The position numbers were made by a program, and so were the translations under genes. Shown one piece after another: positions 17,674-45,956 of a stretch of 64,000 nt of DNA (positions within the stretch are counted from its first letter, which is position 1; each line of letters starts with the position of its first letter). Source of the stretch: Halostagnicola larsenii XH-48 (GTDB taxonomy: Archaea > Halobacteriota > Halobacteria > Halobacteriales > Natrialbaceae). The notes under the pieces were generated by a model. It saw only the letters and a program-made list of their open reading frames with translations. It was not told where the DNA came from and made no database searches. The DNA lies in NCBI RefSeq assembly GCF_000517625.1, contig NZ_CP007056.1, positions 124,001 to 188,000 of the forward strand, written 5' to 3'.

Positions 17674-18603
17674 ATGGCGTCTGCGAAGGTACGGGATGGG
17701 CTGCGAGACGTCGCAGTCGGTCTCCTGACACCGTTCGACGAAACGGGCCGAATCGATCACGAAAAGCTCGCAGCGAACGCAACCGATCTCGCAAGCGAAG
17801 GGCTCGGGACGTTCCTCGCGTGTGCGAACATCAGCGAGTATCACTCCCTGACCCATCAGGAACGCATCGACATCACGGAGACCAGCGTTTCGGCGTTACC
17901 CGACGACGCCTGCGTGCTCGCCGGCGTCGGTGGCAGTACGAAGACCGCACAGGATCTAATCGCGAACTACGAACGTCTCGACGTCGACGCGATGATGATC
18001 ATGCCGCCGGATCACACCTACATTCACGAGCAAGGGCTTCTCGAGTACTACGATGCGCTCGCGACGACGGCTGACAGCCCGATCGTTCCCTACGTTCGCG
18101 GGTTCGAACCGTCGGTGGAATTCCTGGCATCCCTGACCGAAATCGAGAACGTCGCCGGAATCAAGTACGCGATTCCGGATGAAGTCAAACTCGGCCAGGC
18201 AATCGCCGCGGGCGACGACGACGTGATCTGGGTCGACGGCATGGCAGAACCCTACGCGCTTTCGTTCTGGTCGCAGGGGGCCGAGGGATTCACCGCCGGT
18301 GTGACCAACTTCGAGCCCCGCCTCGGGATCGCCCTCCTGACGGCGCTGCGCGAGGAGAACTGGGAGCGGGCCCGCCGACTCCAGAACGCCGCCGTTCCCT
18401 ACCAGCAGTTCCGCAACCGGACGGGCGAGAACAACACCCTCCCGGACGCGATCAGCGTTCCGGCGGTCAAACACGGCCTCGAGATGGCCGGCTTTAACGG
18501 CGGAGACGTGCGCGAACCGATCGTTCCCCTCTCCGAGTCGGACAAAGCCGACGCCGAGGCGCTCTACGAACAACTCCAGACCGACCTCGAGCAAATCCTC
18601 TAA
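17674..18603 (+). CDS. DapA/KdgA-family aldolase (2-keto-3-deoxy sugar acid aldolase candidate)
   Basis: 309 residues from ATG 17674; a GTG six bases upstream is an alternative, but the TATA-like box at 17641-17649 fits leaderless initiation at the ATG. TIM-barrel features of the DHDPS/NAL family are visible: VGLLTPFDETGRID, GVGGSTKTA and the Schiff-base Lys164 in VAGIKYAIPD. The usual YNxP loop is replaced by VPYVRGF, with Tyr140 near the catalytic position, so this is not a classical dihydrodipicolinate synthase. In a pectin/rhamnose locus, cleavage of 2-keto-3-deoxy-gluconate, -galactonate or -rhamnonate to pyruvate plus an aldehyde is the natural guess. Dehydratase activity is an alternative within this family. 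Confidence 0.8.
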   Translation: MASAKVRDGLRDVAVGLLTPFDETGRIDHEKLAANATDLASEGLGTFLACANISEYHSLTHQERIDITETSVSALPDDACVLAGVGGSTKTAQDLIANYERLDVDAMMIMPPDHTYIHEQGLLEYYDALATTADSPIVPYVRGFEPSVEFLASLTEIENVAGIKYAIPDEVKLGQAIAAGDDDVIWVDGMAEPYALSFWSQGAEGFTAGVTNFEPRLGIALLTALREENWERARRLQNAAVPYQQFRNRTGENNTLPDAISVPAVKHGLEMAGFNGGDVREPIVPLSESDKADAEALYEQLQTDLEQIL

Positions 18604-19115
18604 CGCGACTCCCGTTTTACTCGACTTCTCGAGTCGATACCGACCTCGCTACCACTCGTCCCCGTTTTGGTATTGCCCTTCACCTGATCGTCAGCAGTGA
18701 CGTCTCTCCTTTTTGGGTACGTTTCACCCGACCATCGCGACCGGGCTCGAGCACGCTGATACCGCTATTTTGTCTTGAGAATGTCCGGTACTGCCGGACG
18801 AATATTCTACTTTCACGGCGCTTTGGCGCTACTGATTACAGGTGTACTTATGTAATCCAACACGGTGTGAGTGGATGCTACATTTAAATAATCTCGTACC
18901 CGGGTGGTAGCGTCCTCATTAGTCGGGTTTAGGAGGTGCGTTCGGTAACACCGGATGATTTCTCCCCTTCCGTCCCCGTTTTGGGACCCTGACTGGGTAT
19001 CGGGCCTACAATTTCGATAGAAGCGATGTTTTGCTATCGGCTATCCGGACGTATCGAACGGCTGCCCGAAAACGGCGAGAACAGGTCGGTTGGGTCCGCA
19101 GGTGGCTGGTGGTCC
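18604..19115. other. Convergent intergenic region, 512 bases, with one TCCGG-N5-CCGGA site
   Basis: No gene is recognised between the aldolase and mutarotase ends. It includes the inverted repeat described separately at 18784-18798 and a strong TATA-like ACATTTAAATAATC at about 18879-18892. These would be unusual between converging genes unless a short untranslated RNA or a lost gene is present. Confidence 0.5.
18784..18798. promoter_or_regulatory. Candidate regulator site TCCGG-TACTG-CCGGA
   Basis: A perfect 5-bp-arm inverted repeat with a 5-bp centre, identical in design to three copies around the IclR gene at 38.4-39.4 kb. It is followed after two bases by an AT-rich AATATTCTA. No annotated gene starts close by. 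Confidence 0.45.
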
Positions 19116-19421
19116 TCAAATCATTCGATAGACTTCGTCCATCCACTGATCGCTGTCGTCGTCGACGGTGATCCCGTCCATCTGTTCCGCCCAGCGTGCC
19201 TGTGCGTCGCTGGTTTCCATAACCTCCTCGATCGCCTCGGGATCCTCGAGTTCCATGAACCCGAAGACGTGGCCGTCCTGTTCGAAGACGCTGTAGGTCT
19301 CGAGTCCGGCGTCGGAGTCGAGATAGGCCTCCTCGAGCCACTCGGGAACGTCCTCGTGTGCCTCGCGGTACGCCTCGCGCTGTCCGTCGGCGATCTCCAG
19401 GTGGAATGCAATCCGTGCCAT
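19116..19421 (-). CDS. rhaM: L-rhamnose mutarotase
   Basis: 101 residues, the normal size for RhaM (about 104). A dimeric alpha/beta-barrel protein with MARIAFHLEIADGQREAYREAHEDVPEWLEEAY at the N-terminus (Tyr and His in the sugar pocket), then LETYSVFEQDGHVFGFMEL and the C-terminal WAEQMDGI. It interconverts alpha and beta anomers of L-rhamnose (family DUF718). It is the third gene of a minus-strand unit with the rhamnonate dehydratase and the luciferase-like oxidoreductase, 111 bp behind the latter. Confidence 0.88.
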   Translation of the reverse strand: MARIAFHLEIADGQREAYREAHEDVPEWLEEAYLDSDAGLETYSVFEQDGHVFGFMELEDPEAIEEVMETSDAQARWAEQMDGITVDDDSDQWMDEVYRMI

Positions 19422-19532
19422 GCGTTTCGCTCATCGAGTGGGAGTCCCATAGGTATTCGGTTGGCTGGCTGCGGTCGCGAGCGGTCGTCCGCTACATCGA
19501 ACGGAGAAAAACGGCGCGAGTCGAAGTGGTCG

Positions 19533-20573
19533 TTACCGAAACTGCGGCATGACTTCGTCGGCGAACAGTTCCATGCCGTCAGTGTCGGGAAGGTCGACGA
19601 ACCAGCCCTGGAATTTCGTGACGCCGGCGTCGATCCGTCGTTCGATCGCCTCGGCGCACTCTTCGGGCGTTCCCATGACGAAGTATTCGCGGGCGTCCTC
19701 GACGGTCTCGATCGGTGCTTGGTCCTGGTACTCCTCCTCGAACTGGATCGGCGTCATCAGATCGACCAACTGCTCGAGTGTCTCCTCGTCCCGGGTGCAG
19801 ATGACGTGACCGTCCCAGGAGTACTCGATCTCGTCGGGATCGCGCCCGACCGTTTCGCAGTGATCCTCAATGACGCCGATCTTGTGCTCGAGCGTCTCGG
19901 GTTTTCCGTTGAAGACGTCGGTATTCCAGCAGTCGGCGTGTTTCGCGACGAGTTTCAGGGTAACCTGCTCGCCCTGGCCGCCGACGAGGATCGGCGGGTG
20001 GGGGTCCTGTACGGGGCCGGGCTCGCAGTACGCGCCGTCGATTTCGTAGTGGTTGCCCGAGAACGATGCGCCGTCGTCGGGGTCGCTTTCCCACATGCGC
20101 TTCATCAGTCGGATACCCTCATCTAAGCGCATCAGACGGTCGAAACCGTCGCGATACTCCCAGCCGTAGGCGTCGTACTCGCCGTCGTGCCAGCCCGCCC
20201 CGAGGCCGAGTTCGAGGCGGCCGCCGGAAATCACGTCGAGCGTCGCTGCCATCTTCGCGACCAGCGCGGGATTCCGATAGTCGTTACAGAGGACGAGCGA
20301 ACCGATGTTGATCTCCTCGGTAAAGCCTGCTATCGCCGACAGCACCGTCCAGACTTCGTACTCCGCGTGGCCGCGCCCGAGCATGAGGTGATCGGGTGCC
20401 CACGCGGCGTCGAAGCCGAGTTCCTCGGCCAGCAGGACCGATTCTTTCGTCTGCTCCCAGTCGAGAGACTCGAGGCGCGGCGTATCGCGGTGGACCGGCT
20501 CGTCGTCGCCCTCGTCGGGCGCGCCGGCGAACACCGGGACGTTGAACTCGAACGTAATATCCCTGGCGCTCAT
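19533..20573 (-). CDS. Luciferase-like (LLM class) oxidoreductase, probably F420-dependent
   Basis: 346 residues of the bacterial-luciferase TIM barrel. Diagnostic pieces are the N-terminal EELGFDAAWAPDHLMLG, the IGSLVL strand, RNPALVAKMAATLDVISGGRLELGLGAGW and PPILVGGQGEQVTLKLVAKHAD. The ELGLGAGWHDGEYDAYG form is common among coenzyme F420 enzymes; haloarchaea make F420. Only three bases separate it from the rhamnonate dehydratase stop, so the two are one transcription and translation unit. A role in L-rhamnose oxidation is inferred from this, with F420-dependent glucose-6-phosphate dehydrogenase as a same-fold precedent for oxidising a sugar C1 to a lactone. A flavin monooxygenase is the main alternative. 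Confidence 0.82.
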   Translation of the reverse strand: MSARDITFEFNVPVFAGAPDEGDDEPVHRDTPRLESLDWEQTKESVLLAEELGFDAAWAPDHLMLGRGHAEYEVWTVLSAIAGFTEEINIGSLVLCNDYRNPALVAKMAATLDVISGGRLELGLGAGWHDGEYDAYGWEYRDGFDRLMRLDEGIRLMKRMWESDPDDGASFSGNHYEIDGAYCEPGPVQDPHPPILVGGQGEQVTLKLVAKHADCWNTDVFNGKPETLEHKIGVIEDHCETVGRDPDEIEYSWDGHVICTRDEETLEQLVDLMTPIQFEEEYQDQAPIETVEDAREYFVMGTPEECAEAIERRIDAGVTKFQGWFVDLPDTDGMELFADEVMPQFR

Positions 20574-20576
20574 AGA

Positions 20577-21782
20577 TTACTCGACGCGGTAGTGCTCTAA
20601 GGCGTCGCGGTTGACTTCCGAACTCAGCCCGACCGTTTCGGGGAGAGCGATCGAGCCGTTCTCGGCGTTCGGCGGGTTGGCGTAGATCGCGTCGGCGTAG
20701 GTCGACTCCTGTTCGCCCTGGCGCTCTTGATACCACTCGGGGATCGGGAAGTACTCGGCCATCGGCGCGTTCGTCGAGGCGGCGATGAAGTGCAGGTGCG
20801 GGTTCGTCCCCGAGTGGGGAATCACGGGCACGTCGCGGGCGCTGGCCATCGAGTCGATCTTCAGCAACTCGGTCAGGCCGCCACAGCGGTGGACGTCCGG
20901 CTGGAGGATGTCGACTGCTTCGCGCTCTAACAGTTCCTTGTGGCCCCAGCGGGTGAACTCGTGTTCGCCGCCGGAGATGGGGACGTTCGACGCCTCGCGG
21001 ACCTCCGCGTAGCCGTCGATGTCGTCAGGGATGACGGGTTCCTCGACCCACTCCATGTCGTAGCGCTCGAGGCGCTTGAGCATCTTCTTCGCGTAGCGAA
21101 CGGTCCAGCCCATGTAGGCGTCGCCGGCGATGCCGATCTCGTCGCCGACGGCATCCCGAACCGTCTCGACGATTTTCTCGTTTTCTTTCATGCCTTCGCG
21201 ACCGGCTTCGGGGCCGTGGAGAAATCGGAGCTTCATCGTGTCGAAGCCGGCCTCGGCGTACTCCTGCGCTTCGCGCTCGAGTTTATCGTGGTCGACCGGG
21301 TGGAGGTTGCTCGCGTAGCAGGGAATCTCGTCGGTCACGGGTCCGCCGAGCAGTTCGTACACCGGTTTTTCTGCTTCTTTCCCGGCGATGTCCCACAGCG
21401 CGAGGTCGACCGCGCTGATGGCTTCGATAGCCGCTCCCTTTCGACCGAACGGGATCGTCGCGCGATACATCATGTCCCAGAGCCGTTCGCGCTGGTGTGG
21501 ATCCTCGCCGACGATCAGCTTCGAGAGCGTTTCGTCGACGATGGTTTCGATCGAACCGGTCGCCCAGTTACCGACACCAACGCCGGTGATACCGGCGTCC
21601 GTTTCGACTTCGACGACGACATCGCCGACGGGCCCCATCCACTTGCGGCGGGCTTGTGGATTGTCGCCGTCCGCGTTGTTGTACTCGTCGAACTTGCTCA
21701 TGACGGTGACGAGCGGGAACTCGACGAACTCGCCCCAGGAATCGGTGCTGACCTTCGTGACTGTGATGTCTGTGATTTCCAT
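20577..21782 (-). CDS. rhmD: L-rhamnonate dehydratase (enolase superfamily)
   Basis: 401 residues, the size of E. coli RhmD. The enolase-superfamily metal ligands are recognisable as Asp221 in GDAYMGW, Glu247 or Glu248 in WVEEP, and Glu273 in GGEHEFTRWG; Asp295 and His323 (DILQPDVHRCGGLTELLKI, PHSGTNPHLHF) form the expected catalytic part. The GDxYMGW and GEHExTRWG blocks are those of RhmD. It dehydrates L-rhamnonate to 2-keto-3-deoxy-L-rhamnonate. First gene of a unit with the LLM oxidoreductase and rhaM, divergent from the zinc dehydrogenase. Another 6-deoxy or hexonic acid substrate is possible but less likely. Confidence 0.88.
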   Translation of the reverse strand: MEITDITVTKVSTDSWGEFVEFPLVTVMSKFDEYNNADGDNPQARRKWMGPVGDVVVEVETDAGITGVGVGNWATGSIETIVDETLSKLIVGEDPHQRERLWDMMYRATIPFGRKGAAIEAISAVDLALWDIAGKEAEKPVYELLGGPVTDEIPCYASNLHPVDHDKLEREAQEYAEAGFDTMKLRFLHGPEAGREGMKENEKIVETVRDAVGDEIGIAGDAYMGWTVRYAKKMLKRLERYDMEWVEEPVIPDDIDGYAEVREASNVPISGGEHEFTRWGHKELLEREAVDILQPDVHRCGGLTELLKIDSMASARDVPVIPHSGTNPHLHFIAASTNAPMAEYFPIPEWYQERQGEQESTYADAIYANPPNAENGSIALPETVGLSSEVNRDALEHYRVE

Positions 21783-21837
21783 ACGTTCAGATCACGCTTC
21801 GTTAGCTCACCTCAAGATGGGGTAAACAGCCCCATAA

Positions 21838-21983: not shown

Positions 21984-23018
21984 ATGAAGGCTATAGTCCA
22001 TACCGGTCCCAGATCTATCGAAATCCGCGAACGAGAGGAAGTAGTACCAGCCGATGACGAAGTACGCGTCCGCGTCCATTCTGCCGGACTGTGCGGAAGC
22101 GATGCTCACGCGTATAAATACGAGGACGGCTACGAGTGGATCCCGATGCCGCGCATCATGGGCCACGAGTACTCCGGCGAAGTCGTCGAAGTCGGCGACG
22201 ACGTGACCGACTTCTCGGTCGGCGACCACGTCGTCGAGGAGCCGATCCACGACTGTGGCTCCTGTTTTCAGTGCAAGAACGGCCAGCCTAACGTCTGCCA
22301 GAACTTCGAGATCACGGGAATGCACAACGACGGTGCCTACACCGAGTACACGACGGTGAAGCCGCGAGATCTCCATCACATTCCCGACGACCTTCCGCTC
22401 GGACAGGCGAGCATCACCGAACCGCTCAGCATCGCGACGCGCGCGGTGTTCGATCAATCGAACGTAACCCCCGGCGATACCGTTCTCGTGGAAGGTCCCG
22501 GCCCGATCGGCGTTCTCGTCGCAGCCGTCGCGGACGCGATGGGGGCAGACGTCATCGTTTCAGGACTCGGCAAAGATACCGAATACCGACTCCCGCTGGT
22601 CGAACAACTCGGTATCGAGACGGCCGATATTCAGACGACGGATCTCGAGGATACCGTCGAGACGCGAACCGACGGCATCGGATTCGACGTCGTGTTCGAT
22701 ACGACGGGGCACAAAAGCGGCGTCGAGATGGCGATCGAACACGTTCGGAAGGGCGGGCAGGTCGTCGTCGTCGGCCTCCCCGGCGCACCGAGCGAAGTGT
22801 TCATGACGCCCGTCGTCCGCGGCGAAGTCGATGTCAATACCTCCTACGGCTCGACCTGGCAGAACTTCGAGCAGGCGATCCGCCTCCTCTCTGCTGGTGC
22901 GATTGATGCGGACGCGATCATCGATCGATCGTTCAGCGTCGACGAACCGACCGCCGCATTCGAGGCATTCCTCGAGTCTGAAACCTGCAAACCCGTCTTT
23001 TCGTTCACCGACATCTGA
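21984..23018 (+). CDS. Zinc-dependent medium-chain dehydrogenase (sorbitol/threonine dehydrogenase type)
   Basis: 344 residues, MDR fold. Catalytic zinc ligands are Cys37 in GLCGSD and His61-Glu62 in MGHEYSG; structural zinc cysteines are 91, 94, 97 and 105 (CGSCFQCKNGQPNVC). The nucleotide-binding region has VLVEGPGPIGVLVAAVADAMGA. The family oxidises secondary alcohols of polyols and sugar acids with NAD(P)+. Divergent from rhmD and followed by the lactonase, it could be the dehydrogenase making 2,4-diketo-3-deoxy-L-rhamnonate, a step done by short-chain enzymes in described pathways, or an L-rhamnose dehydrogenase. The choice is inference. Confidence 0.85.
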   Translation: MKAIVHTGPRSIEIREREEVVPADDEVRVRVHSAGLCGSDAHAYKYEDGYEWIPMPRIMGHEYSGEVVEVGDDVTDFSVGDHVVEEPIHDCGSCFQCKNGQPNVCQNFEITGMHNDGAYTEYTTVKPRDLHHIPDDLPLGQASITEPLSIATRAVFDQSNVTPGDTVLVEGPGPIGVLVAAVADAMGADVIVSGLGKDTEYRLPLVEQLGIETADIQTTDLEDTVETRTDGIGFDVVFDTTGHKSGVEMAIEHVRKGGQVVVVGLPGAPSEVFMTPVVRGEVDVNTSYGSTWQNFEQAIRLLSAGAIDADAIIDRSFSVDEPTAAFEAFLESETCKPVFSFTDI

Positions 23019-23175: not shown

Positions 23176-24048
23176 ATGGTGTTGGACACTCACACGCACG
23201 CCTGGACGCGCCCGACGCGAGACCACCCCTGGGTTAACGGGGCCATCGTGGACGCCATCGACGGCTTCGACGTCGACACCGTCTACGACGCGGAACGGCT
23301 CCTGGCCGATATGGATGCGATCGGCGTCGACGAGGCCGTCGTCGTCGGCTATCCGATCTGCGAGTGGACGGACAACGCCTACACGCTCGAGTGCGTCGAG
23401 GAATTCGACAGGCTCTCGGGCATCGTCATGCTCGATCAGTTCGCAGACGGCGCGGCCGACCGCCTTCGGACATCGATGGCCGTCGACGGAGTTCTCGGTT
23501 TCAGACTCGGTGCGATCTGTCCGTACGATCGAATGTGGGAGACCTTCGACCCTTCCGTCTCGTGGCTTCGGGAGGCGATCGACGAGACGGCGTTCTGGGA
23601 GGCCGCCCGCGAGACCGACGCCCTCGTCCAGATCCTCGCCCACGTCGACCAACTCAAGGACGTGATCGAACTGGTCGAAACGTACCCGGCCCTCTCTTAC
23701 GCGCTCGATCACTTCTGTCACGCCGACCCCTCGATTCCGCCGGAAGACGGTGCGTTCGCCGACCTCGAAGCGCTCGCTACAGAGGAGTACGACGTCGCGG
23801 TGAAGGTTTCCGAGGTCGTCCACCGCTCCGAAGAGGAGTTCCCCTACGAGGACATGCACGACCACGTCCGCTGGCTTCTCGAGACCTTCGGCCGCGAGCG
23901 GGTCGTCTGGGGCTCTGACTTCCCAAACGTCAGCGACGAGGCGACCTACGAAGGGAGCCTGCGCTGGCTCGAGCACGTCGACTGCCTCTCGAAGAAAGAC
24001 CGGTCGTGGCTCACCGGCAGGTCGTTCGAGACCGTCGCCGGGATCTGA
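23176..24048 (+). CDS. Amidohydrolase-2 family lactonase, candidate L-rhamnono-lactonase
   Basis: 290 residues of the COG3618/amidohydrolase-2 type: the N-terminal metal motif LDTHTHAW (Asp4, His6, His8), FRLGAICPYD, a conserved His in YALDHFCHAD, and the C-terminal VVWGSDFPNV with the catalytic Asp. Family members include L-fucono- and L-rhamnono-lactonases, which open sugar lactones, and 2-pyrone-4,6-dicarboxylate hydrolase. In this neighbourhood, hydrolysis of L-rhamnono-1,4-lactone to L-rhamnonate, the substrate of RhmD, is the best fit. It ends 38 bases from the convergent FAH-family gene. Confidence 0.82.
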   Translation: MVLDTHTHAWTRPTRDHPWVNGAIVDAIDGFDVDTVYDAERLLADMDAIGVDEAVVVGYPICEWTDNAYTLECVEEFDRLSGIVMLDQFADGAADRLRTSMAVDGVLGFRLGAICPYDRMWETFDPSVSWLREAIDETAFWEAARETDALVQILAHVDQLKDVIELVETYPALSYALDHFCHADPSIPPEDGAFADLEALATEEYDVAVKVSEVVHRSEEEFPYEDMHDHVRWLLETFGRERVVWGSDFPNVSDEATYEGSLRWLEHVDCLSKKDRSWLTGRSFETVAGI

Positions 24049-24086: not shown

Positions 24087-24923
24087 TTACTCGCCGACGA
24101 CGTGGTTCTCGAGCGTGCCGATACCCTCGACTTCGGCCTCGACGGTGTCGCCGGGTGCGAGCAGCTCCGGCGGGTCGCGGAAGACGCCGACGCCGCCCGG
24201 CGTTCCGGTCGAGATGACGGTTCCCGGCTGCAGGGTCGTGACATGACTGAGGTACTCGATCGCGTCGCCGACGTCGAAGATGAACTCCGCCGTCGTCGAT
24301 TCCTGTTTGACCTCGCCGTTGAGTCGAAGTTCGACTTCGACGTCGTTCGGATCGATCGCATCGGGGGCGGTCAGCGCGGGCCCCATCGGCGCGAACGTGT
24401 CGTAGCTCTTGCCGCGGAAGAACTGTCCGTCCTCGAACTGGGCGTCTCGAGCGCTCACGTCGTTGACGACCGTGTATCCCGCAACGTACTCTTCGGCGTC
24501 CGCCGCGTCGACCTCACAGGCGGTTCGGCCGATGACGATGCCGAGTTCGACCTCGTAGTCGACCTGCTCGACGTCGTCGGGGTGGACGATCGGCGCCTCG
24601 GGATCGGTGACGCTCGAGGGCGACTTCGCGAACAACATCGGCTTTTCGGGGATCTCCTCGTCCTGTTCTTCGGCGTGGTCGTAGTAGTTGAGCCCGATGC
24701 AGATGATCTGCTCGACCGAGGGAACCGGCGCGAGGTAGTCGTCTGGCTCCTCGATCGCCGGCAGTTCGCCGATTTCGGCGGCGCGTTCGACGCGCCGACG
24801 GTAGCCCGGCGTTGCGAGTTCTTCGAGCGATGGTTCGCCGAATCGGTCCAGTCCGTACGTCTGATCGTCGACGATGACGCCCCAGCGGACGCCGCCGCTC
24901 GTCGCGAATCGAATGAATTGCAT
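24087..24923 (-). CDS. FAH-family hydrolase, candidate 2,4-diketo-3-deoxy-L-rhamnonate hydrolase
   Basis: 278 residues with the fumarylacetoacetase C-terminal fold: CIGLNYYDHAEE (75-86), the metal ligands Glu124 and Glu126 in YEVELGIVIG and Asp155 in VVNDVSARDAQ, GKSYDTFAPMGP and ISTGTPGGVG. In L-rhamnose diketo-hydrolase pathways this family splits 2,4-diketo-3-deoxy-L-rhamnonate into pyruvate and L-lactate. The L-lactate oxidation genes directly upstream on the same strand support this. Other FAH reactions (acylpyruvate hydrolysis, ureidoglycolate-type lyase) cannot be excluded by sequence. Confidence 0.85.
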   Translation of the reverse strand: MQFIRFATSGGVRWGVIVDDQTYGLDRFGEPSLEELATPGYRRRVERAAEIGELPAIEEPDDYLAPVPSVEQIICIGLNYYDHAEEQDEEIPEKPMLFAKSPSSVTDPEAPIVHPDDVEQVDYEVELGIVIGRTACEVDAADAEEYVAGYTVVNDVSARDAQFEDGQFFRGKSYDTFAPMGPALTAPDAIDPNDVEVELRLNGEVKQESTTAEFIFDVGDAIEYLSHVTTLQPGTVISTGTPGGVGVFRDPPELLAPGDTVEAEVEGIGTLENHVVGE

Positions 24924-25028: not shown

Positions 25029-27269
25029 TTACGCGCCGGGATCGAGGAGCGTAATCGGGTGGCGCGGCTGTCGGGTCAGCAGCGAGTCGAGTTGCTCAAG
25101 ACAGGACGTGCCGCTCGCGACGACCGTTCGATCCGCCGCGTCGGGCATCTCGAACTGCGATTCGAGGCGGCTGCCGACGTCCATGCTCAGTTCGTAGTAC
25201 TCGCTCTTGTAGCCGAAACTGCCGGCCATGCCACAACACTCGACGTCCGACGTGGTGACGTCGAACCCCTGGCGTTCGAGGACGGCCGTCGTAAACTCCT
25301 CGAGTTCGAGGGTTCGCTGCTGGCAGTGTGAGTGGTAGGCGATGTCGGACGCGGTCGCGTCGTGCTCGGCGTCCCGAAGCGGGGTGGGGTCGACGCCGTT
25401 CTCGAGCAGGCCGTAGACGTACTCGAACAGTTCGTAGCTACGCTCTGCGAGCGATTCGTACCGGTCTTCGGAGAGCAGTCGCTCGTACTCGCCGCGGAAC
25501 ATCGCGAGGTCGCTCGGTTCGATGACGACGACGTCGTAGCCGGCGTCGATGTGGGCCTCGAGGTCCGCACGAACTTCGCGGGCGTGTGCTTCGGCCGTCG
25601 AGATCATCCCCTGGGAGAGCGGCGCGCGACCGGAAGAGGCCACGTCGGGGATTTCGACCGCGACGCCGAGGGCCTCGAGCGTCCGGACGGCCGCCTTCCC
25701 TCGCTCGGTTCGGACGTGGTTCGTATAGAGGTCGGGGTAGACCACGGCGTGGTACTCCGCGTCGACGGGGCGGGGCGCGTCCCGGTTGCGGAACCACTCG
25801 ACGAGCGTCTCGCGTTCGAACGTCGGCAGTTCTCGGCGGCGGTCGATGCCGAGCACTCGTTCCATGAGCATCCGCGACGGCGGCGTCCCCGCGGCCCAGT
25901 TCGACAGCGGCGCGGTCGCGGAACCGAGTTTCGCGAGCGTATCGAAGTTGCCGAAAAAGCGTTTTTGCAGGTCGAGGCCTGCGGGTTCTTCATCGGGTGT
26001 GAGCCCTTCGACGAGGAAGTCGAGTTCGCCGCCGTCGGCACCGCGATTTCGCCGGTCCCGGACGACGGTGTTGATCCACGGAATATCGATCTTCACCGGA
26101 CACTGGTTGACACACCGCGAGCAGCCCGTACAGAGGTCGTTGAACTCCTCGGTCGACTCCTCGCCGTTGACGCCAGCCTCCCAGCCGGTGGCGATGCCGC
26201 CGGCGTAGGTTTCGCCGCCGAAGGCGTGGCCGCCGACGGACTGAAAGTTCGCACACGAGTTCGCACAGGCCGAGCACCGAATGCAGTAAAGCGTCTCCCG
26301 GAGTTGGTCGTCGTCCCGCATCTCCATTCGGCCGTTGTCGAGGAGCACCAGGTGGAACTCCCGATCGTTTTCGGCGTCCGAACTCGAGTCGCTAGCGGTA
26401 CCTGCGATCGGCCCCTCGGAGTCGAAGTCGACCGTCGGCGTCGCCACCGGCGGCGAGAACAGCGAGACGTAGGAGGTGATGTCCTGTCCGGTACCCGAGC
26501 GGGCGATCAACTCGACGAACGGCTGGAGGTCCTCGAACGTCGGCACGATCTTCTCGACGCCGGCGACGGCGACGTGCGTGTCGGGGACCGCGACGGTCTT
26601 TCTGGCGTTGCCCTCGCTGGTGACCAGCGCGATGGTTCCGGTGTCCGCGGTCACGAAGTTCGCGCCGGTGATTCCAATGTCCGCCTCCTGAATCTGCTCG
26701 CCGAGGTACTCTCGAGCGAAGTTCGTTAGCTCCTCGGCCGTCTCGAGGGGTTCTTCGGGGTCGAACTGTTCGTTGAACAGGGTCGCGATCTCCTCGCGCG
26801 ACTGGTGGATCGCGGGCGCGACGAGGTGGCTGGGCGCTTCGTCGGCGACCTGCAGGACGAACTCGCCGAGGTCGGTTTCCCAGACGTCACAGCCCTCGTC
26901 CTCGAGGTGTTCGTTGAGTTCGATCTCCTCGGTCGTCATCGACTTCGATTTGACGACGGTTTCGGCCGCGCGTTCGCGGGCGAGTTCGCGCACGTACCGG
27001 TTCGCGTCGGCCGCGTCGTCGGCGAGGTAGACCGTCCCGCCGTTCGCCTCGACGGTCTCGCGCACCTGCTCGATCAGCGAGGGGAGTCGCTCGATGGCGT
27101 CTTCTTTGATGGCGCGCGCTCGGTCCTTGTACGCGTCGTAGTCCTCGAGTCGGGCGACGGATTCGTAGCGGCCCTCGTTGAACCCGCGAGCGTTGCGCTC
27201 GACGCTCTCGCCTTCCGTCTCCATGATCTGCCGAATTCGGTCGGCCTTCTGGGAACGGTTGCTCGACAT
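25029..27269 (-). CDS. L-lactate oxidation complex subunit, LutB-LutA fusion
   Basis: 746 residues. Residues 1-290 are an LUD (LutB-type) domain with TGANFVTADTGTIALVTSEGNAR. Residues 325-400 hold two [4Fe-4S] clusters: Cys329/332/335/339 (CIRCSACANSC) and Cys380/383/386/390 (CTGCSRCVNQCP). The C-terminal half is LutA-like, with CCGMAGSFGY near 690 and a last GTSCLEQ from the cysteine-rich heterodisulfide-reductase-type repeats. Together with LutC it would oxidise L-lactate to pyruvate and feed electrons to the respiratory chain. Bacillus has separate LutA and LutB; here they are one chain. The start overlaps the lutC stop by one base (TAATG). Confidence 0.9.
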   Translation of the reverse strand: MSSNRSQKADRIRQIMETEGESVERNARGFNEGRYESVARLEDYDAYKDRARAIKEDAIERLPSLIEQVRETVEANGGTVYLADDAADANRYVRELARERAAETVVKSKSMTTEEIELNEHLEDEGCDVWETDLGEFVLQVADEAPSHLVAPAIHQSREEIATLFNEQFDPEEPLETAEELTNFAREYLGEQIQEADIGITGANFVTADTGTIALVTSEGNARKTVAVPDTHVAVAGVEKIVPTFEDLQPFVELIARSGTGQDITSYVSLFSPPVATPTVDFDSEGPIAGTASDSSSDAENDREFHLVLLDNGRMEMRDDDQLRETLYCIRCSACANSCANFQSVGGHAFGGETYAGGIATGWEAGVNGEESTEEFNDLCTGCSRCVNQCPVKIDIPWINTVVRDRRNRGADGGELDFLVEGLTPDEEPAGLDLQKRFFGNFDTLAKLGSATAPLSNWAAGTPPSRMLMERVLGIDRRRELPTFERETLVEWFRNRDAPRPVDAEYHAVVYPDLYTNHVRTERGKAAVRTLEALGVAVEIPDVASSGRAPLSQGMISTAEAHAREVRADLEAHIDAGYDVVVIEPSDLAMFRGEYERLLSEDRYESLAERSYELFEYVYGLLENGVDPTPLRDAEHDATASDIAYHSHCQQRTLELEEFTTAVLERQGFDVTTSDVECCGMAGSFGYKSEYYELSMDVGSRLESQFEMPDAADRTVVASGTSCLEQLDSLLTRQPRHPITLLDPGA

Positions 27270-27772
27270 TAGTCCTCCACGATGATCGCGTGCGTTTCTC
27301 GCGGCCCGTGGACGCCGTAGACGAGTTCGCCCATATCCGCGGTTGCGCTCGGTCCGGTTGCGAGTACGGCGTCGTCGCGCCCGTTTCGGAATCGCTCACC
27401 CATGCGCTCGAACGCCGTCGCCATGTCCCCGACGATGTCGCACTCGCGGACGACGACGACGTGGCGGTCCGGAAAGAGCCCGGAGAGTTCCCCACCCGCG
27501 GGCGTCGACTCGAGGACGACGGTTCCGTAGCTGGCGACGCCGAGCGCCGCGCTCGTCACGCCACAGGCGGCCTCGCGAAGCTGGTCGGGGGTCGGGTCGA
27601 GAACCACGTCGGTGTCTGCGAGCGAGACGGTGTCGAACGGAAGCGCCGCACCGACTGCCGGCCGTTCGATCGCATCTGCGACTGTGTCCTGAAAGTCCGC
27701 GGGTGTGGTTCGTGTAACCTCGGTTCGAACCTTCTCGAGGCTGGTTTCGAACGTTTCGAGTTGGGTTGCCAT
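27269..27772 (-). CDS. lutC: LutC-like LUD domain protein
   Basis: 167 residues from the ATG at 27772; the frame is open for 18 more codons upstream, but those include no family similarity. LUD-domain pattern: DTVSLADTDVVLDPTPDQLREAACGVTSAALGVASYGTVVLESTP, then SGLFPDRHVVVVRECDIV and TGPSATADMGELVYGVHGPRETHAIIVED. The last segment with the PS-TADIE-like motif is typical of LutC/YkgG. It is the third component of the L-lactate oxidation complex and is translationally linked to the LutBA fusion. Confidence 0.9.
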   Translation of the reverse strand: MATQLETFETSLEKVRTEVTRTTPADFQDTVADAIERPAVGAALPFDTVSLADTDVVLDPTPDQLREAACGVTSAALGVASYGTVVLESTPAGGELSGLFPDRHVVVVRECDIVGDMATAFERMGERFRNGRDDAVLATGPSATADMGELVYGVHGPRETHAIIVED

Positions 27773-27929
27773 TAGTTGTGTGTGACTAACGGATGCCACG
27801 GTTTTGGGTCTTGCCATTGTCGCCACGCGTCGGTATCTGTCCGTGGCGTCCGGCCAAAAATCGTCGATCGGTGATCGCGTCGAGTCGTCGCCCCGTAGAC
27901 GGGTTAGGTCGCTCCGGGGTTGGGATTGC

Positions 27930-33740: not shown

Positions 33741-34922
33741 TCACCCCTGAATCTCCTCTTCGGAGGAAACTGGCGTCGGTTCGGCCGCCGCTTGCTTGAC
33801 GATTCCGTGGGCGATCGAATCACCGGTCGGTCCGTCGAAGACGTGGACCTTCTCGCGGTCGAAGACGATCTCGACCGTTTCGTTCTCGCTGATTGCGGTG
33901 TCAGGGTCGATGCTCACGAGCAACTCTGTCGCGTCCTCGCCCATCACCGAATCGGAGTCCGCCTGACTATCCGCAGGATTCAGGTACGCATACGTCTGGT
34001 CCCCGACTGGCTCGAGCACGTCGACGACCGCCGGGAACGCAGCGCTCGGCGTTTCTGGCTCGTCGTCGCTCGAGACGAGATAGACGTCTTCGGGTCGAAC
34101 GCCGACGCTCACGTCGTTGTGCCCGGAATCGATATCGAGCGAATGGCTGATCTGGAAGTGGGTCAGATCGAGCGTATCGTTGGTGACGCTGCCGTCGTAG
34201 ATGTTCATCGAGGGGCTGCCGATGAAACTCGCGACGAACCGGTTTGCCGGCCGGTCGTAACACTCGAGCGGCGGCGCACACTGCTGGAGGTTACCCCCAT
34301 TGATGATGGCGATTCGGTCCGCCATCGTCATTGCTTCCTCCTGATCGTGGGTCACGTAGACGGTCGTAATGTCGAGTTCCTTCTGCAAACGCTGGATCTC
34401 GGTTCGCATGTGGACGCGCAGTTTGGCGTCGAGGTTCGCAAGCGGCTCGTCCATGAGGAACACTTCCGGCTCCCGAACGATCGCACGGGCGATCCCGACG
34501 CGCTGTTGCTGGCCGCCGGAGAGTTCGCTTGGACTTCGGTCGAGCATTCCCTCGAGCTGGACGATTTTGGCCGCCTGTTTGACGCGGCGTTCGATCTCCT
34601 CGTCCTCGAAGTCCCGAAGCCGGAGTCCGAAGCTGATGTTCTTTCGAACGTTCATGTGGGGAAACAGCGCGATGTTCTGGAAGACCATCGAGATGTTCCT
34701 GTCCTTCGGGGGCTCGTTCGTCACGTCCTTGCCGGCGATTTCGACGGTTCCGTCCGAGGGAAGCGTTAGCCCCGAAATCATCTCGAGGGTCGTCGATTTC
34801 CCACACCCCGACGGGCCGACGAGACAGAGGAATTCGCCGTCCTCGATCTCGAGGTTCATTTCGTCGACTGCGACGACCTCTTCGTACCGTTTCGTCGTGT
34901 TGGTAAGATTGACGTGTCCCAT
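33741..34922 (-). CDS. Sugar ABC transporter ATP-binding protein (MalK/UgpC/MsmX type)
   Basis: 393 residues. ATPase motifs are all present: Walker A GPSGCGKST (36-44), Q-loop VFQNIALFPHM, signature LSGGQQQR (134-141), Walker B VFLMDEPLANLD (154-165) and H-loop VTHDQEEA. The C-terminal 150 residues are the TOBE/MalK regulatory domain (SVGVRPEDVYL). It energises import of oligosaccharides through the two permeases upstream. The start follows the permease stop by four bases. The haloarchaeal pattern of a dedicated ATPase per operon applies. Confidence 0.94.
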   Translation of the reverse strand: MGHVNLTNTTKRYEEVVAVDEMNLEIEDGEFLCLVGPSGCGKSTTLEMISGLTLPSDGTVEIAGKDVTNEPPKDRNISMVFQNIALFPHMNVRKNISFGLRLRDFEDEEIERRVKQAAKIVQLEGMLDRSPSELSGGQQQRVGIARAIVREPEVFLMDEPLANLDAKLRVHMRTEIQRLQKELDITTVYVTHDQEEAMTMADRIAIINGGNLQQCAPPLECYDRPANRFVASFIGSPSMNIYDGSVTNDTLDLTHFQISHSLDIDSGHNDVSVGVRPEDVYLVSSDDEPETPSAAFPAVVDVLEPVGDQTYAYLNPADSQADSDSVMGEDATELLVSIDPDTAISENETVEIVFDREKVHVFDGPTGDSIAHGIVKQAAAEPTPVSSEEEIQG

Positions 34923-34926
34923 GATA

Positions 34927-35847
34927 TCACTCCTTTAGACCGCCCTGCGTTAAGCCTCTAACGATGTGTTTCTGTGCGAATACCACGAGCAGCGCGACGG
35001 GAATAATCCCGACGAGGCTTGCTGCAGCCATGAAGTGGTATTGCTGGCCACTCTGTTGTTCGAACGCGAGAATTCCGTGGACAAGAACCGCCCAATCTTC
35101 GGGGTTGCCACGGCTCATCATGAACGAGAAGAAGAACTCCCGGTAGACGCTGATGAACACGATGATCGCGGCGGTCACGACGCCCGGTGCAGACAGCGGC
35201 AAGATCACGCGGAACAACGCGCCGAGTCGCGTCGTCCCTTCGACTCTGGCCGCGTCCTCGAGGCCGTCCGGAATCTGGCTGAAGAACGTGGTCAGGATGA
35301 AGATGGTGATCGGCAGGGTGAGCATCGTGAACGGGAACGCCATCGCCCACGGCGTGTTGTAGAGGTTCGGCGTCATGAATATCCCGATCGTAAGATTTCC
35401 GGTCAGCATCTCGTATAGCGGGATCAGGTACGCGATTCCGGGGAAGTACGAGACGATGAGCAACAGCAACATCAGCGGTCCTTTGCCCCGGAAGTCGACG
35501 CGGCCGAACGCGTATCCCGCGAGACTTCCGATGACGAGACAGATGACGACCGTGAGCATCGCGATGATGATGCTGTTGAAAATGTAGAGATGGATCGGTT
35601 GCTGTTGGAAGATTTCCGAGAAGACTGCGAAGTTAATCTCTCTCGGCAAGAATCCCATGTCGTATAATGCGTTCCCCGGCGTGATTGCCAGAACGAGGAG
35701 CCAGTAGAACGGGAACAGCGTGATCATCAGGAACGACGTGAGCGCGACGTAGAACAGGATCCGGTAGGAGTCGTACGGATTGTTCACCATCAGATCCACG
35801 ACCCGTCCGACGAAACTCTTCGACTCCTCTTGTGTAACGTTACTCAT
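34927..35847 (-). CDS. Sugar ABC transporter permease (MalG type, CUT1)
   Basis: 306 residues with six predicted membrane helices after a polar N-terminal stretch of about 30 residues. The EAA loop is visible as DGLEDAARVEGTTRLGALFRVILPLSAPG, which docks on the ATPase. FPFYWLLVLAITP in the first helix is typical of MalG/UgpE proteins. It overlaps the preceding MalF-type permease gene by eight bases. Confidence 0.94.
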   Translation of the reverse strand: MSNVTQEESKSFVGRVVDLMVNNPYDSYRILFYVALTSFLMITLFPFYWLLVLAITPGNALYDMGFLPREINFAVFSEIFQQQPIHLYIFNSIIIAMLTVVICLVIGSLAGYAFGRVDFRGKGPLMLLLLIVSYFPGIAYLIPLYEMLTGNLTIGIFMTPNLYNTPWAMAFPFTMLTLPITIFILTTFFSQIPDGLEDAARVEGTTRLGALFRVILPLSAPGVVTAAIIVFISVYREFFFSFMMSRGNPEDWAVLVHGILAFEQQSGQQYHFMAAASLVGIIPVALLVVFAQKHIVRGLTQGGLKE

Positions 35848-36799
35848 ACGAATCGACCTCGTTGCGGAAATTGATCAGATACACCATAATGATGCCGGCG
35901 ATGATGAGCGCAGTCAAGAAGGCGATCGCGGAAGCGGTCGCCCACCGTTGCATCTGGAAGGTATCTACGACAAGACACGTCAGTGTCGGGACGGTACTAC
36001 ATCCCGTGGACGCCTCGACGACACCGTAGACCTTCATCGAACTGATCGTGTAGAAGATCATCCCGATCAGGACGACGGGCTTGATCAACGGGAGCGTGAT
36101 GAGCTTGAACTGCTGGAACTTCGAAGCACCTGCGACTTTCGCTACGTCGTAGAGGCTCTGGTCGACGCTCGCTAGCCCGGCGAGAATAATGAGCGCGATG
36201 AACGGAATCTTTCGCCAGATGTCGATGAGGATCACCATGATGGTCGAGTCTCGTGTACTCACCATCGGATTCGAGGAGAACAGCCCGAGATTATGCAAAA
36301 CGTCGACGAACGGGCTGATACTCGGCTGAAACAGCAGGTAAAACATCATCCCCTGGATAACGATCGGGATCGACCACGGAAGGATGACCATCATCCGAGC
36401 GAACGACCGACCGCGGAACTCCTTGTTGAGGATGAGCGCCATTCCGAGGCCGAGGACCGTTCCGATCGAGACGCTGATCGCGGTGATGAGCAGCGTTAGG
36501 ACTAGCGCGCTCGAGAACGGATCACTCAGGCTAAGGAACGGTGCACTAAGGACGTTATCCATACCGCCGGTGAGTATCTCGACGTACCCATCGATTCCCT
36601 GGAATTCTCCGACCGGATGCTCACCGTACAGGTCGTCGCTCTGGAGCGACAGCCAGAACGTCCGGAGCAACGGGTAAAAGGCCAGCGCCGAGAGGATGAG
36701 GATCATCGGCCCGATGAGCAGATACCCGTACTTATCGTCGTCTAGTCGTTCAATCCTGTAGAGGATTGGCGATACGGTTCGGTATAGCTTCTCTATCAT
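35840..36799 (-). CDS. Sugar ABC transporter permease (MalF type, CUT1)
   Basis: 319 residues, six membrane helices. The cytoplasmic EAA loop reads LYDVAKVAGASKFQQFKLITLPLIKP. The first helix YLLIGPMILILSALAFYPLLRTFWLS and the VLPWSIPIVIQGMMFYLLF segment are typical of UgpA/MalF-type CUT1 permeases. It follows the solute-binding protein gene after 68 bases. The substrate is unknown; the locus points to pectin-derived oligosaccharides such as unsaturated rhamnogalacturonan disaccharide. Confidence 0.94.
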   Translation of the reverse strand: MIEKLYRTVSPILYRIERLDDDKYGYLLIGPMILILSALAFYPLLRTFWLSLQSDDLYGEHPVGEFQGIDGYVEILTGGMDNVLSAPFLSLSDPFSSALVLTLLITAISVSIGTVLGLGMALILNKEFRGRSFARMMVILPWSIPIVIQGMMFYLLFQPSISPFVDVLHNLGLFSSNPMVSTRDSTIMVILIDIWRKIPFIALIILAGLASVDQSLYDVAKVAGASKFQQFKLITLPLIKPVVLIGMIFYTISSMKVYGVVEASTGCSTVPTLTCLVVDTFQMQRWATASAIAFLTALIIAGIIMVYLINFRNEVDSYE

Positions 36800-36867
36800 T
36801 GCACACTAACCATGGCGACTGTGAATAATCTTGTACCTTTCGTTGTTCCGCGAAGGTGCGGGTGGCG

Positions 36868-38355
36868 TTACTCGGCTTCGTCGGCTTCGATGTCTTCGAC
36901 CCGCTCCTGTGCGTTTTGTACGGCTTGTTCCGGCGACTGTTCCTGGTTGACACAGGCGTGGAATTCCTCGGCGATCGCACTCGATTGGGAATCCCAGACC
37001 TGGTTGATCGGGTGGACCCACTGATTCTCGGACTGCAGCTGGAGCGTATCGAGATAGCGACTCATAACTGGAACCTCTGCGGCTTGATCGGACTCGAAGA
37101 GGCCCGGTTTCGGTGGTGTCGATCCGGTGATCTCGAAGATATCGAGATAGAACGAATCCGAAGTCATTGCTTTCAGCAACTCGACAGCTGCCGGCAGTTT
37201 CTCGGAGTTGGGGTTGAGCGAGAGATGCCACCCGCCGAGGGTCGCGTTCGTTCCACCCGTCCCTTCGTACTCTGCTTCTTCTTCTGTCACGCCGTACGGG
37301 AACGGCATCAATCCGATATCTTCGCCGAACGCATCGTCGCTTGCAAAGTTCGCGATAGCGTACGACCAGTTTCGGTGGAACGCTGCTTGACCGGCCTCGA
37401 ACGAATCCTGTGACGGCTGGGTGTCCCAACCGAGTGCTTCAGACGGCAGGATATCGCCCGTTATTCCGTCGAGTGCGTACTCGTCGTCCGAGCCGTGCAT
37501 GAACGTTCGCAACAGACGCAATCCGTCGATTACCGGCTGCTCGTCGATCGTGACCGGACGGTCGCCGACGGGCCCGTGTTGGTTCTCCATGTCGCCGAAG
37601 TAGTTTCCGCCCATCGTGACGATTTTCTCGTATCCGGTCTGGTGCCCGATAGTCCGCTCGTTGAGCGTCGTCGTGTACCCATCGTTGATGTCGTTCGCTT
37701 CGAGCGTGTCGCTGACGATTTCTCCGAATCGTTCCCACGTCATCGGCTCGGTCGCCCAGTTTTCGCCTTCGGGGTCGTAGCCTGCGTTTTCGACGTAATC
37801 TTTGCGGTAGAGGATTGCCGGAATGTCCACGAACTGCGGGATTCCGTACAGCCCGCCTTCGTGGCGCATCGAATCCACCATGACCTGATGATAGTCGTTC
37901 TCGAGTTCGTCGAGCTTCTCTTGGGGTAGCGCTTCGTTCAGGTCGACCAGCCACCCTCGAGGCGCGAACGCTGACGTGTACGAGAAGTTAGTCAGCATGA
38001 TATCTGGTGAGGACTGATCGGACTGTAGAATCTGTGTGTACTGCTTTTCCTGATCGTCTGCGCCCCAGACGCCAGTCGAAATGTTGACGTCGATGTTCTC
38101 GGGCAAGCCGGCGTTACGAAGCGATTCTTTAAGTTGATCCTCAACGTCTCCGAAAAGCGGTGCGGTGGCGTACTCGAGAGTTACTTCTTCGCCGTCGTAC
38201 TCCCCGATGTCGATTTCGTCGTCGCCGCCATCACTGATACATCCGGCGGCGCCAATGATTCCAGCCGAACCAGCGGCGGCGAGCACTTTTCGCCGCGGAA
38301 AGACGCGCGTATTGTCGATACTATCCCTATCCCCACTACTGGCTCTGTCTGCCAT
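36868..38355 (-). CDS. Extracellular sugar-binding lipoprotein of ABC importer (family 1)
   Basis: 495 residues. The N-terminus has a twin-arginine motif (FPRRKVLAAAGSAGIIGAAGC) ending in a lipobox-like AAGC, so it is Tat-exported and lipid-anchored. The mature protein has the family-1 solute-binding fold: VTLEYATAPLF, SSPDIMLTNFSYTSAFAPRGWLVDLNEAL, YGIPQFVDIPAILYRKDYVENAGYDP, GQAAFHRNWSYAIANF and GGWHLSLNPNSEKLPAAVELLKAMTS. It delivers an oligosaccharide to the permeases. A TATA-like box about 25 bases before the ATG predicts a leaderless operon transcript. First gene of a five-gene operon, divergent from the IclR regulator. Confidence 0.93.
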   Translation of the reverse strand: MADRASSGDRDSIDNTRVFPRRKVLAAAGSAGIIGAAGCISDGGDDEIDIGEYDGEEVTLEYATAPLFGDVEDQLKESLRNAGLPENIDVNISTGVWGADDQEKQYTQILQSDQSSPDIMLTNFSYTSAFAPRGWLVDLNEALPQEKLDELENDYHQVMVDSMRHEGGLYGIPQFVDIPAILYRKDYVENAGYDPEGENWATEPMTWERFGEIVSDTLEANDINDGYTTTLNERTIGHQTGYEKIVTMGGNYFGDMENQHGPVGDRPVTIDEQPVIDGLRLLRTFMHGSDDEYALDGITGDILPSEALGWDTQPSQDSFEAGQAAFHRNWSYAIANFASDDAFGEDIGLMPFPYGVTEEEAEYEGTGGTNATLGGWHLSLNPNSEKLPAAVELLKAMTSDSFYLDIFEITGSTPPKPGLFESDQAAEVPVMSRYLDTLQLQSENQWVHPINQVWDSQSSAIAEEFHACVNQEQSPEQAVQNAQERVEDIEADEAE

Positions 38356-43788: not shown

Positions 43789-44553
43789 TTACGAATACGT
43801 AACATTCAACTCGATGATATTGGTCGCCTGCTTGAGCAACAACGGAACGTCCTCTTCGAGACGCGAACCGCTGACTCTCGTCGTCGGTCCGGATATCGAA
43901 ACTGCCCCGAGTACCCTGCCCGTATTCCCTCTAACCGGCGCGGCGGCACATTGTAGCCCTTTTAACCGCTCTTCCATGTCGAAGGCCACGCCCCGTTCTC
44001 GGACCTCCGAGAGCCCTTCTCGCAACTCCTCGCGGTCGGTGACCGTGTTTTCGGTTATTTTGGGCAATCCGTGGCGATCGACGATCTCGTTGACCCGCCG
44101 CTCCGGAAGGTACGCGAGGATCGCTTTGCCGAGTGCCGTACAATGCAGTTGGACGCGGGTGCCGGTGTGTGCATCAACGCGGACCGCGTTGTCTCCGGCC
44201 ACGCGATAGATGTACGTTCCTCGTCCGTGTTCTTCGACCAACAGATTTACTAGTTCTCCCGTTTCATCGGCCAGTTTGTGCATCTCGGGTCGTGCGATTC
44301 GATACAAATCCCGACGACTACGTGCGTGTGCGCCAAGTTCGAGAAATCGTATTCCGACGTGGAACGTCGATTCGTTTTTCACGACGTACTCTTCTTCCTC
44401 GAGCGTGCTAAGATAATTGTGAACGTTACTCTTCGGCAGGTTTAGGTGGTCAGCAAGCTCCGTGACGCCTGATCCGTCGAGTTCCATCAACGCCTCGATA
44501 ATTCGAAATGTTGTTTTGGTCGATTTGATTGGGTTCTTCGCCTCGTGTGACAT
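43789..44553 (-). CDS. IclR family transcriptional regulator (second copy)
   Basis: 254 residues from the ATG at 44553, the same length as the IclR at 38.6 kb. The winged helix is at about 9-65 (TTFRIIEALMELDGSGVTELADHLNLPKSNVHNYLSTL), followed by the effector domain (ETGELVNLLVEEHGRGTYIYRVAG, LHCTALGKAILAYL, LQCAAAPVRGNTGRVLGAVSISGP). TATA-like AAATTTAAG on the minus strand lies about 30 bases before the ATG. The gene is isolated by over 1.3 kb on each side, so its targets are not adjacent; the sugar-acid genes of this locus are candidates. Confidence 0.9.
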   Translation of the reverse strand: MSHEAKNPIKSTKTTFRIIEALMELDGSGVTELADHLNLPKSNVHNYLSTLEEEEYVVKNESTFHVGIRFLELGAHARSRRDLYRIARPEMHKLADETGELVNLLVEEHGRGTYIYRVAGDNAVRVDAHTGTRVQLHCTALGKAILAYLPERRVNEIVDRHGLPKITENTVTDREELREGLSEVRERGVAFDMEERLKGLQCAAAPVRGNTGRVLGAVSISGPTTRVSGSRLEEDVPLLLKQATNIIELNVTYS

Positions 44554-45956
44554 CTTACCTCGGATATCCTGTTTATGATACTTAAATTTTCGTCCCACGT
44601 TTTGGAACACATGTACGTTATCGATAAATCTCCCCCTCCGTGTCCCCCCTCCCCATCAGCCGAACCCCCCCCTCTGCCAGCGAGACGAGACGGTACGTAG
44701 CGGGTTCGTCCCCAACAGCGGACGCAGTCTGGTGATGTTCCGTTGTGACGAACCTGCGTCATCTGTGGCGGAGGCGGTTCTACGGCGACCGTCTGACTCT
44801 CACACATCGGTTTACCATTCGTTGACAAGTGAATTTTTCATTTATGATGAACAGTTTCTGGTGACGATCGAATTCGCGCAGTACGGTCGGTCAGTCCTTC
44901 CATTCGATCCACGCTTGTCTATGCGTAGAACTGTGTGTCTGTCAGGCGTAGTATCTAGACCGGCACGTAAGGTACCGGGACCGTCGAGTATCACGCTAGT
45001 CCTCGTCGGACTGGAACGCTCTCGTTTCTTCTATCACCTGTCTCCCACCTCGTGATCCACGACCGAGAAAATTCACCAATGATGAACGTTCGGCTACTAC
45101 ATCTCGTCTCGACTTCGGTTCATAACGTCCTGTCCTGCGTACAAGCCGGCCACTTTCACTGCTTGCACTACCGACTTGCTCAGACCGTACTATTGGCATA
45201 TAACTCAAAACTATCAACCCAAATTTAATTCTGATAATTCGATACCCCATTTCGACGTTCGGCCGAATCTCGCTTCCAGCCGCTACGGGCTGGCGGCGGG
45301 TCTGCCGGTCGTAGTAACCCACGTTCTGCCGGGGGACTTTGGGACCGTGATCATCCGTTTCGATACCCGTGCCGACAGACAGCGGTCGGCACCGACAGCT
45401 GTCGTTCTACAGGGGGTCGAATGGCGTCGTTCTTGCCCAGGAGCTTGGCTGGGATCGGATCTAACGGAAAGGCAGCCATCGAATCCAGACCAGTCACGTA
45501 CTGACCGATCGTTTTTCTGCTCAATCGGTTCCAGGGCGATGGGTTTTCGAATCGCCAGAGATCCGAATCGTCGGTTACGGTCGGTATCAGCCGCTCCCAA
45601 GCGGATCTCCGTACAGTTGGCGGGAACGAACCGGCTCTTTGGCTGTCGGATCCGACTGTCACATCTGTTTCCCGTCATTTTCTCGCTACTCGGCAGCGTT
45701 CCGTGTACCCGTCTCCAGTATCGTCGTTGGATGGGTCTATCCGCTCTGGTATCGTTCTCGTTCGGTACTCGAGCGATCTGCAGTTGCCGGCACGGTCCGG
45801 TTCGACCTCGAGAGATCGAATGCCATCTGAGTAACTACATTTGATTGAACCGTCTCGCTCGAGTTTGCGCGTTTGTTCTCCACTTCGCTCGGACTGAGAT
45901 TCGACGCTCGAAGTAGTTGGGCGAATCTCGGTCGTAGCCTGTCGGGAGTCGCGAGC
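44554..45956. other. Gene-poor region, 1.4 kb
   Basis: It has no frame with haloarchaeal composition. It begins with the promoter of the second IclR gene and a C-rich tract at 44632-44672 (C-runs of 5, 6, 4 and 8), i.e. G-rich on the IclR coding strand. A frame of 222 codons at 45176-45844 lacks any recognisable motif. The stretch 45190-45250 is AT-rich. It may be remains of lost genes. Confidence 0.45.

Follow-up and report, generated by a model that had tools for sequence, protein, structure and literature searches.

A luciferase-like gene paired with rhamnonate dehydratase in haloarchaea: a candidate F420-dependent L-rhamnose 1-dehydrogenase

The gene tied most tightly to rhamnonate dehydratase in haloarchaea has no assigned function in public annotation, which raises the question of what an LLM-class oxidoreductase (LLM), one of the luciferase-like hydride transferases and monooxygenases, does in a rhamnose cluster. 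The example considered here lies in a 64,000-nt window of Halostagnicola larsenii XH-48 DNA (NZ_CP007056.1, positions 124,001 to 188,000), whose numbering is used below. The LLM ORF occupies exactly 19533-20573 on the minus strand, begins with ATG, and encodes 346 aa. It is listed here with the associated genes:

19533..20573, minus strand: LLM-class oxidoreductase, proposed L-rhamnose 1-dehydrogenase (PF00296, TIGR03560, rhcD linkage)
19116..19421, minus strand: RhaM-family L-rhamnose mutarotase, 101 aa (weak TIGR02625 match, 6.2e-7)
20577..21782, minus strand: L-rhamnonate dehydratase, RhcD-type, enolase superfamily (MR_MLE domains; 3 bp upstream of the LLM gene)
21984..23018, plus strand: Zn-dependent MDR, RhcE-type 2-keto-3-deoxy-L-rhamnonate dehydrogenase (ADH_N/ADH_zinc_N; 70% to RefSeq rhcE)
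23176..24048, plus strand: amidohydrolase-2 L-rhamnono-lactonase, RhcC-type (PF04909; 67% to RefSeq rhcC)
24087..24923, minus strand: 2,4-diketo-3-deoxy-L-rhamnonate hydrolase, RhcF-type (NF053535, 4.8e-63, below cut-off; 59% to RefSeq rhcF)
25029..27269, minus strand: LUD/Fe-S L-lactate oxidation subunit, LudB-like (NF045670 LdhH, 2.2e-133, below cut-off)
27269..27826, minus strand: LUD-domain subunit, LudC-like (PF02589, 3.5e-18)
33741..38355, minus strand: ABC sugar transporter (ATPase 33741-34922, permeases 34927-35847 and 35840-36799, binding protein 36868-38355)
43789..44610, minus strand: IclR-family regulator, RhcR candidate (50-58% to rhc-cluster IclR)

The LLM ORF is a real gene: its acidic, high-GC3 coding profile, the 77-88% identity of its orthologs in 48 further genomes, and its constant neighbor (49 of 49) argue against a chance reading frame. 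The product matches PF00296 (Bac_luciferase) in Pfam over residues 36-319 (1.8e-52; 179 bits, against a gathering score of 27.9). The top NCBIfam model is TIGR03560 (F420_Rv1855c), at 226.5 bits just under the cut-off of 231.4; the Haloferax ortholog exceeds this cut-off (236.6 bits), the Halocatena ortholog carries the TIGR03560 name in RefSeq, and the next three subfamily models are also F420 families. Members of this best-matching family are Rv1855c-type proteins predicted to be F420-dependent, although we know of none with a demonstrated reaction; the window's LLM differs from them in having its own conserved N-terminal segment, FEYNVPVFAGAP. An AlphaFold2 model made from 21 orthologs, too shallow an alignment, had a pLDDT of 57.6.

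As the original prediction stated, the LLM gene lies three bases from the rhamnonate dehydratase gene (gap 20574-20576, 3 bp) and ahead of the mutarotase gene, the RhaM-like ORF starting 111 bp downstream. The top model for the RhcD-type ORF (20577-21782) is NF011968, L-rhamnonate dehydratase (257 bits, below the cut-off of 393), and its relatives at 75% bear the RefSeq name rhcD; the mutarotase ORF (19116-19421) matches a RefSeq "L-rhamnose mutarotase" at 72%. In Haloarcula pelagica, RefSeq names the orthologs as rhcC lactonase, rhcD dehydratase, rhcE KDR dehydrogenase (the MDR), and rhcF hydrolase, and gives the LLM no name. The gene set of the Haloferax volcanii rhc cluster, reportedly treated by Reinhardt et al. 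2019 (doi 10.1111/mmi.14213) in work on Haloferax rhamnose catabolism, is as in the window, and the rhcC-F names propagate to its close relatives; the name rhcE for the MDR presumably derives from the Haloferax work. Haloferax clusters congeneric with that of H. volcanii contain the LLM. The window's ABC transporter resembles the rhc transporter of Haloarcula pelagica at 47% in the ATPase and 28-29% in the permeases, and a second IclR-like ORF begins at 38364, both such ORFs being 50-58% to rhc-cluster IclR proteins.

The link between LLM and dehydratase genes extends well beyond the window. In a sample of 391 Halobacteria genomes, LLM orthologs (77-100% identity) were found in 49, with a clear gap below them, paralogs reaching at most 51%. 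The rhcD gene was likewise found in 49, an identical set, and rhcD without the LLM was not seen among the 391. The two are adjacent and co-directional in 49 of 49, in genera including Haloferax, Haloarcula, Halorubrum, Halosimplex, Natrinema, Haladaptatus, and Halocatena; the aligned gaps between them, stop codon counted, are 3-13 bp. Above threshold in these genomes were also rhcE (48) and rhcF (45), often non-adjacent, and the cluster SDR (19). The gene had been predicted to be locked into the rhamnose operon, with conservation beside rhmD across haloarchaea as the check and its absence as refuting; the linkage holds in every one of the 49 and is stronger than first guessed. Since the LLM gene adjoins rhcD in every sampled rhcD-bearing haloarchaeon, the LLM almost certainly belongs to the rhamnose pathway. 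RhcD itself forms two groups relative to the window copy, 80-95% and 73-77% identical (the latter Haloferax and most Haloarcula), a split that the LLM does not mirror: in Halopiger the LLM is 87% identical and RhcD 76%.

The window's cluster has genes for every other step of the oxidative diketo-hydrolase pathway. Because rhcC, rhcD, rhcE, and rhcF cover those steps, C1 oxidation alone remains, and the LLM is the best, if unproven, candidate for this missing first oxidation. We infer the reaction by exclusion and from the sister clade described below; the best single explanation of the sequence data, put forward tentatively, is that the LLM is an F420-dependent L-rhamnose 1-dehydrogenase. It would then be a core enzyme of a haloarchaeal oxidative L-rhamnose (rhc) pathway. 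The mutarotase would provide the anomer for the LLM, which would oxidize L-rhamnose at C1 to L-rhamnono-lactone with transfer of hydride to coenzyme F420; the amidohydrolase would open the lactone, and RhcD, co-translated with the LLM, would dehydrate L-rhamnonate. RhcE and RhcF would complete the route to pyruvate and L-lactate, the latter to be oxidized by the Lud proteins, while F420H2 would be reoxidized via the genome-encoded F420:NADP oxidoreductase.

Other dehydrogenases that might act at C1 were sought among SDR, Gfo/Idh, and AKR genes, none of which was found in the window's cluster. By coordinates, 19 of the 49 genomes, Haloferax included, have an SDR ortholog no more than ~13 kb from the LLM gene; eight have another SDR within ~19 kb, and in two the only such genes are of the Gfo/Idh or AKR type, at 10-19 kb. 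In the remaining 20 (two of whose contigs end early on one side), none of the three families was found within ~19 kb, so that the LLM is the only unassigned oxidoreductase there. This absence of rivals, an argument by exclusion, is the strongest one for the LLM as the dehydrogenase. Simple relocation of the SDR was considered and rejected: the closest SDR anywhere in these 20 genomes shares at most 43% identity with the cluster SDR, which is therefore absent rather than moved. According to RefSeq, Natronococcus CG52, Haladaptatus halobius, and Haloterrigena turkmenica have the full pathway and the LLM, with no second C1-dehydrogenase candidate nearby; the first two clusters are nearly minimal, and the LLM is their sole unassigned oxidoreductase. 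The LLM gene on the Haloterrigena turkmenica plasmid pHTUR01 is followed, ~8 kb downstream, by a cluster for mycofactocin biosynthesis (L069:22296-27101).

Nearly as probable, and likewise short of an even chance, is that the LLM is an accessory enzyme of the rhamnose regulon, acting for example on a by-product or on some related sugar. Oxidation of L-rhamnose would then fall to an NAD(P)-dependent SDR, whose gene would be part of the cluster in certain species and lie outside it in the rest. The SDRs in 19 clusters and the others nearby in 8 more genomes are consistent with this, as is the literature, in which rhamnose dehydrogenases are SDRs, including the characterized archaeal enzyme for L-rhamnose, which is NADP-linked (PMC12028159). 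Known SDR L-rhamnose 1-dehydrogenases (LRA1 and those of Azotobacter and Thermoplasma) have the reaction and pathway position proposed here for the LLM, but an unrelated fold and an NAD(P) cofactor, and SDRs occur in only part of the haloarchaeal clusters. From its enzyme family, the Haloferax SDR would be expected to be the rhamnose dehydrogenase; if it is, the LLM does something non-redundant there: either the two enzymes both act on rhamnose and differ in cofactor, or the LLM serves some other purpose. An accessory role would also fit the equal conservation of the LLM with or without the SDR, and the proximity of LLM and SDR genes in sister clades. It is harder to reconcile with the 20 genomes having neither a cluster SDR nor a close ortholog anywhere, with a pathway in which no further reaction needs an enzyme, and with the greater universality of the LLM in the cluster compared to rhcE, rhcF, or the SDR.

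Decay of the LLM where an SDR is present was rejected, the protein being under strong purifying selection in Haloferax: its dN/dS of 0-0.07 is among the lowest of the rhc proteins, compared to 0.09-0.18 for the SDR. A difference in active-site residues between genomes with and without the SDR was likewise rejected, no column of the LLM alignment separating the two sets. With conservation unrelaxed beside the SDR and no separating column, the role of the LLM looks independent of the SDR.

In a tree of 45 rows (FGD itself left out; the branches are long and the midpoint root arbitrary), the rhc LLMs are sister, with support 99/96, to another haloarchaeal LLM clade. Moving outward from the haloarchaeal proteins, one meets actinobacterial F420-labelled LLMs and SfnG/SsuD-like proteins, with Mer, Adf, and fHMAD further away; under midpoint rooting, the rhc LLMs, the actinobacterial LLMs, and the SfnG/SsuD types share a branch (98/97) to which Adf and fHMAD do not belong. 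Sister-clade genes are mostly found beside another RhaM-type mutarotase, an SMP30 lactonase, a mannonate dehydratase, and rbs-type sugar ABC genes. In most of these loci an SDR adjoins the LLM; in one (L073), which combines the LLM with mutarotase and ABC genes, no SDR was matched. The neighbors of a third LLM clade are peptidases and peptide transporters, and the wider family is thus not uniform in function. The broader proposition that the rhc LLMs are F420-dependent free-sugar C1 dehydrogenases of a clade apart from FGD, FSD, and Adf, and that the sister clade does likewise for a second sugar, is somewhat less likely than the reaction proposed for the rhc LLMs alone.

A paralog at 44-51% identity marks this second haloarchaeal sugar cluster (L064:19787-29583, L090:10395-20175, L071, L076-L079, and L082), which contains an SDR, the LLM, and often an AKR or RraA, together with the RhaM-type mutarotase, mannonate dehydratase, SMP30 lactonase, and rbs-type ABC genes, and sometimes transaldolase and PfkB. 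Proximity of LLM and SDR genes recurs in several haloarchaeal LLM clades (L083, L086, L087, L091-L093, and L171), among them the clade whose neighbors are M28 peptidases and peptide transporters; members of the two families may work in pairs.

F420 is the most likely cofactor of the LLM, judging from phylogeny and co-occurrence. CofD, an enzyme of F420 biosynthesis, scored over its cut-off in all 49 LLM-bearing genomes, necessary but weak evidence because CofD is expected in haloarchaea generally, and the F420:NADP oxidoreductase (NpdG/Fno) did so in 6 of 6 genomes tested, the window's own included. The best-scoring bacterial relatives of the LLM on plasmids are from actinobacteria, a group known for F420. 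It seems unlikely that the LLM is instead an FMN- or FMNH2-dependent, oxygen-using enzyme of luciferase or SfnG type, acting on the aldehyde form of the sugar or on another intermediate. RutA, SfnG, and putative LLM-monooxygenase structures do score as high in profile searches as the F420 enzymes, alongside Mer and fHMAD; SfnG/SsuD-like proteins branch nearer the rhc LLM than do Adf and fHMAD (with long branches and a midpoint root); and a GAGWHxxEYxAYG segment of the LLM resembles a monooxygenase motif. TIGR03560 and the next three models are F420 families, however, the closest bacterial relatives on plasmids by score are actinobacterial, a lactone product is to be expected where a lactonase and a mutarotase are dedicated to the pathway, and the rhc cluster showed no flavin reductase that could serve as a partner.

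An exchange of roles with the MDR is more improbable still: the LLM would be an F420-dependent 2-keto-3-deoxy-L-rhamnonate 4-dehydrogenase, oxidizing a secondary alcohol as Adf does, and the Zn-MDR would oxidize C1 of L-rhamnose. The strict pairing with rhcD, whose product is 2-keto-3-deoxy-L-rhamnonate, would suit such an arrangement, Adf (1rhc) is among the best F420 matches, and the MDR family includes archaeal sugar 1-dehydrogenases such as 2H6E. The RefSeq name of the MDR, rhcE, is nevertheless that of the 2-keto-3-deoxy-L-rhamnonate dehydrogenase, and its nearest solved relatives are L-threonine 3-dehydrogenases, which oxidize a secondary alcohol.

Identification of the LLM as an F420-dependent L-rhamnose 1-dehydrogenase was originally argued by analogy with F420-dependent glucose-6-phosphate dehydrogenase (FGD). 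The two share the PF00296 superfamily, and FGD carries out the chemistry proposed for the LLM, oxidation of a sugar C1-OH to a lactone with hydride passing to F420. Similarity is low, however (5lxe, 63.8 bits; TIGR03554, 66 bits against a cut-off of 420), and FGD acts on a sugar phosphate, where a free sugar is proposed for the LLM. The catalytic residues of FGD1 we take to be His40, Trp44, and Glu109; the FGD-type Glu and Trp are not conserved in the LLM. Two FGD relatives, Adf (an F420-dependent secondary alcohol dehydrogenase) and fHMAD (9fp4), share the LLM fold (phmmer, 67-68 bits), and their active-site His aligns with the conserved His62 of the LLM, but their Glu aligns with Trp128, and the Trp of their DHFHPW motif is unmatched. 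Both belong to a different clade in the tree, in which FGD has no row. The analogy therefore stands as to fold, and fails in that the LLM lies outside the Adf-type clade and keeps just one of that clade's three catalytic residues.

An F420-linked free-sugar dehydrogenase was also expected to be new to haloarchaea. The role and the clade would be, but the chemistry has a precedent: FSD enzymes oxidize free sugars at 400 mM, slowly and with F420 (PMC6279831, PMC8498797). No F420-dependent or luciferase-like rhamnose enzyme was found in the literature searched, the scope of which excluded the Haloferax rhamnose-catabolism study. If the proposed reaction is correct, the LLM would put F420-linked dehydrogenation of a free sugar to physiological use; if the sister clade is included, aerobic sugar catabolism would be a role for F420 in haloarchaea, where its role has been called enigmatic and, according to a review, a single F420-dependent reaction has been reported (PMC8305020). 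With a conserved, operon-bound candidate whose substrate is specified and whose spectrophotometric assay is simple, this role would become directly testable.

The rhc cluster is enclosed in a pectin/rhamnogalacturonan island (13069-31142 and 61055-63787) with GH28-like, GH105/BglB-like, and alpha-L-rhamnosidase-like genes. The same island encodes a 2,5-dioxovalerate dehydrogenase (835 bits, over cut-off) and KdgD-like and Azf-like/uronate dehydrogenase-like proteins, which together suggest an oxidative galacturonate route. Beside the pectin genes, an aldehyde:ferredoxin oxidoreductase-like gene (13069-14739) adjoins a 92-aa ORF (14831-15109) that, judged by eye, is possibly MoaD/ThiS-like.
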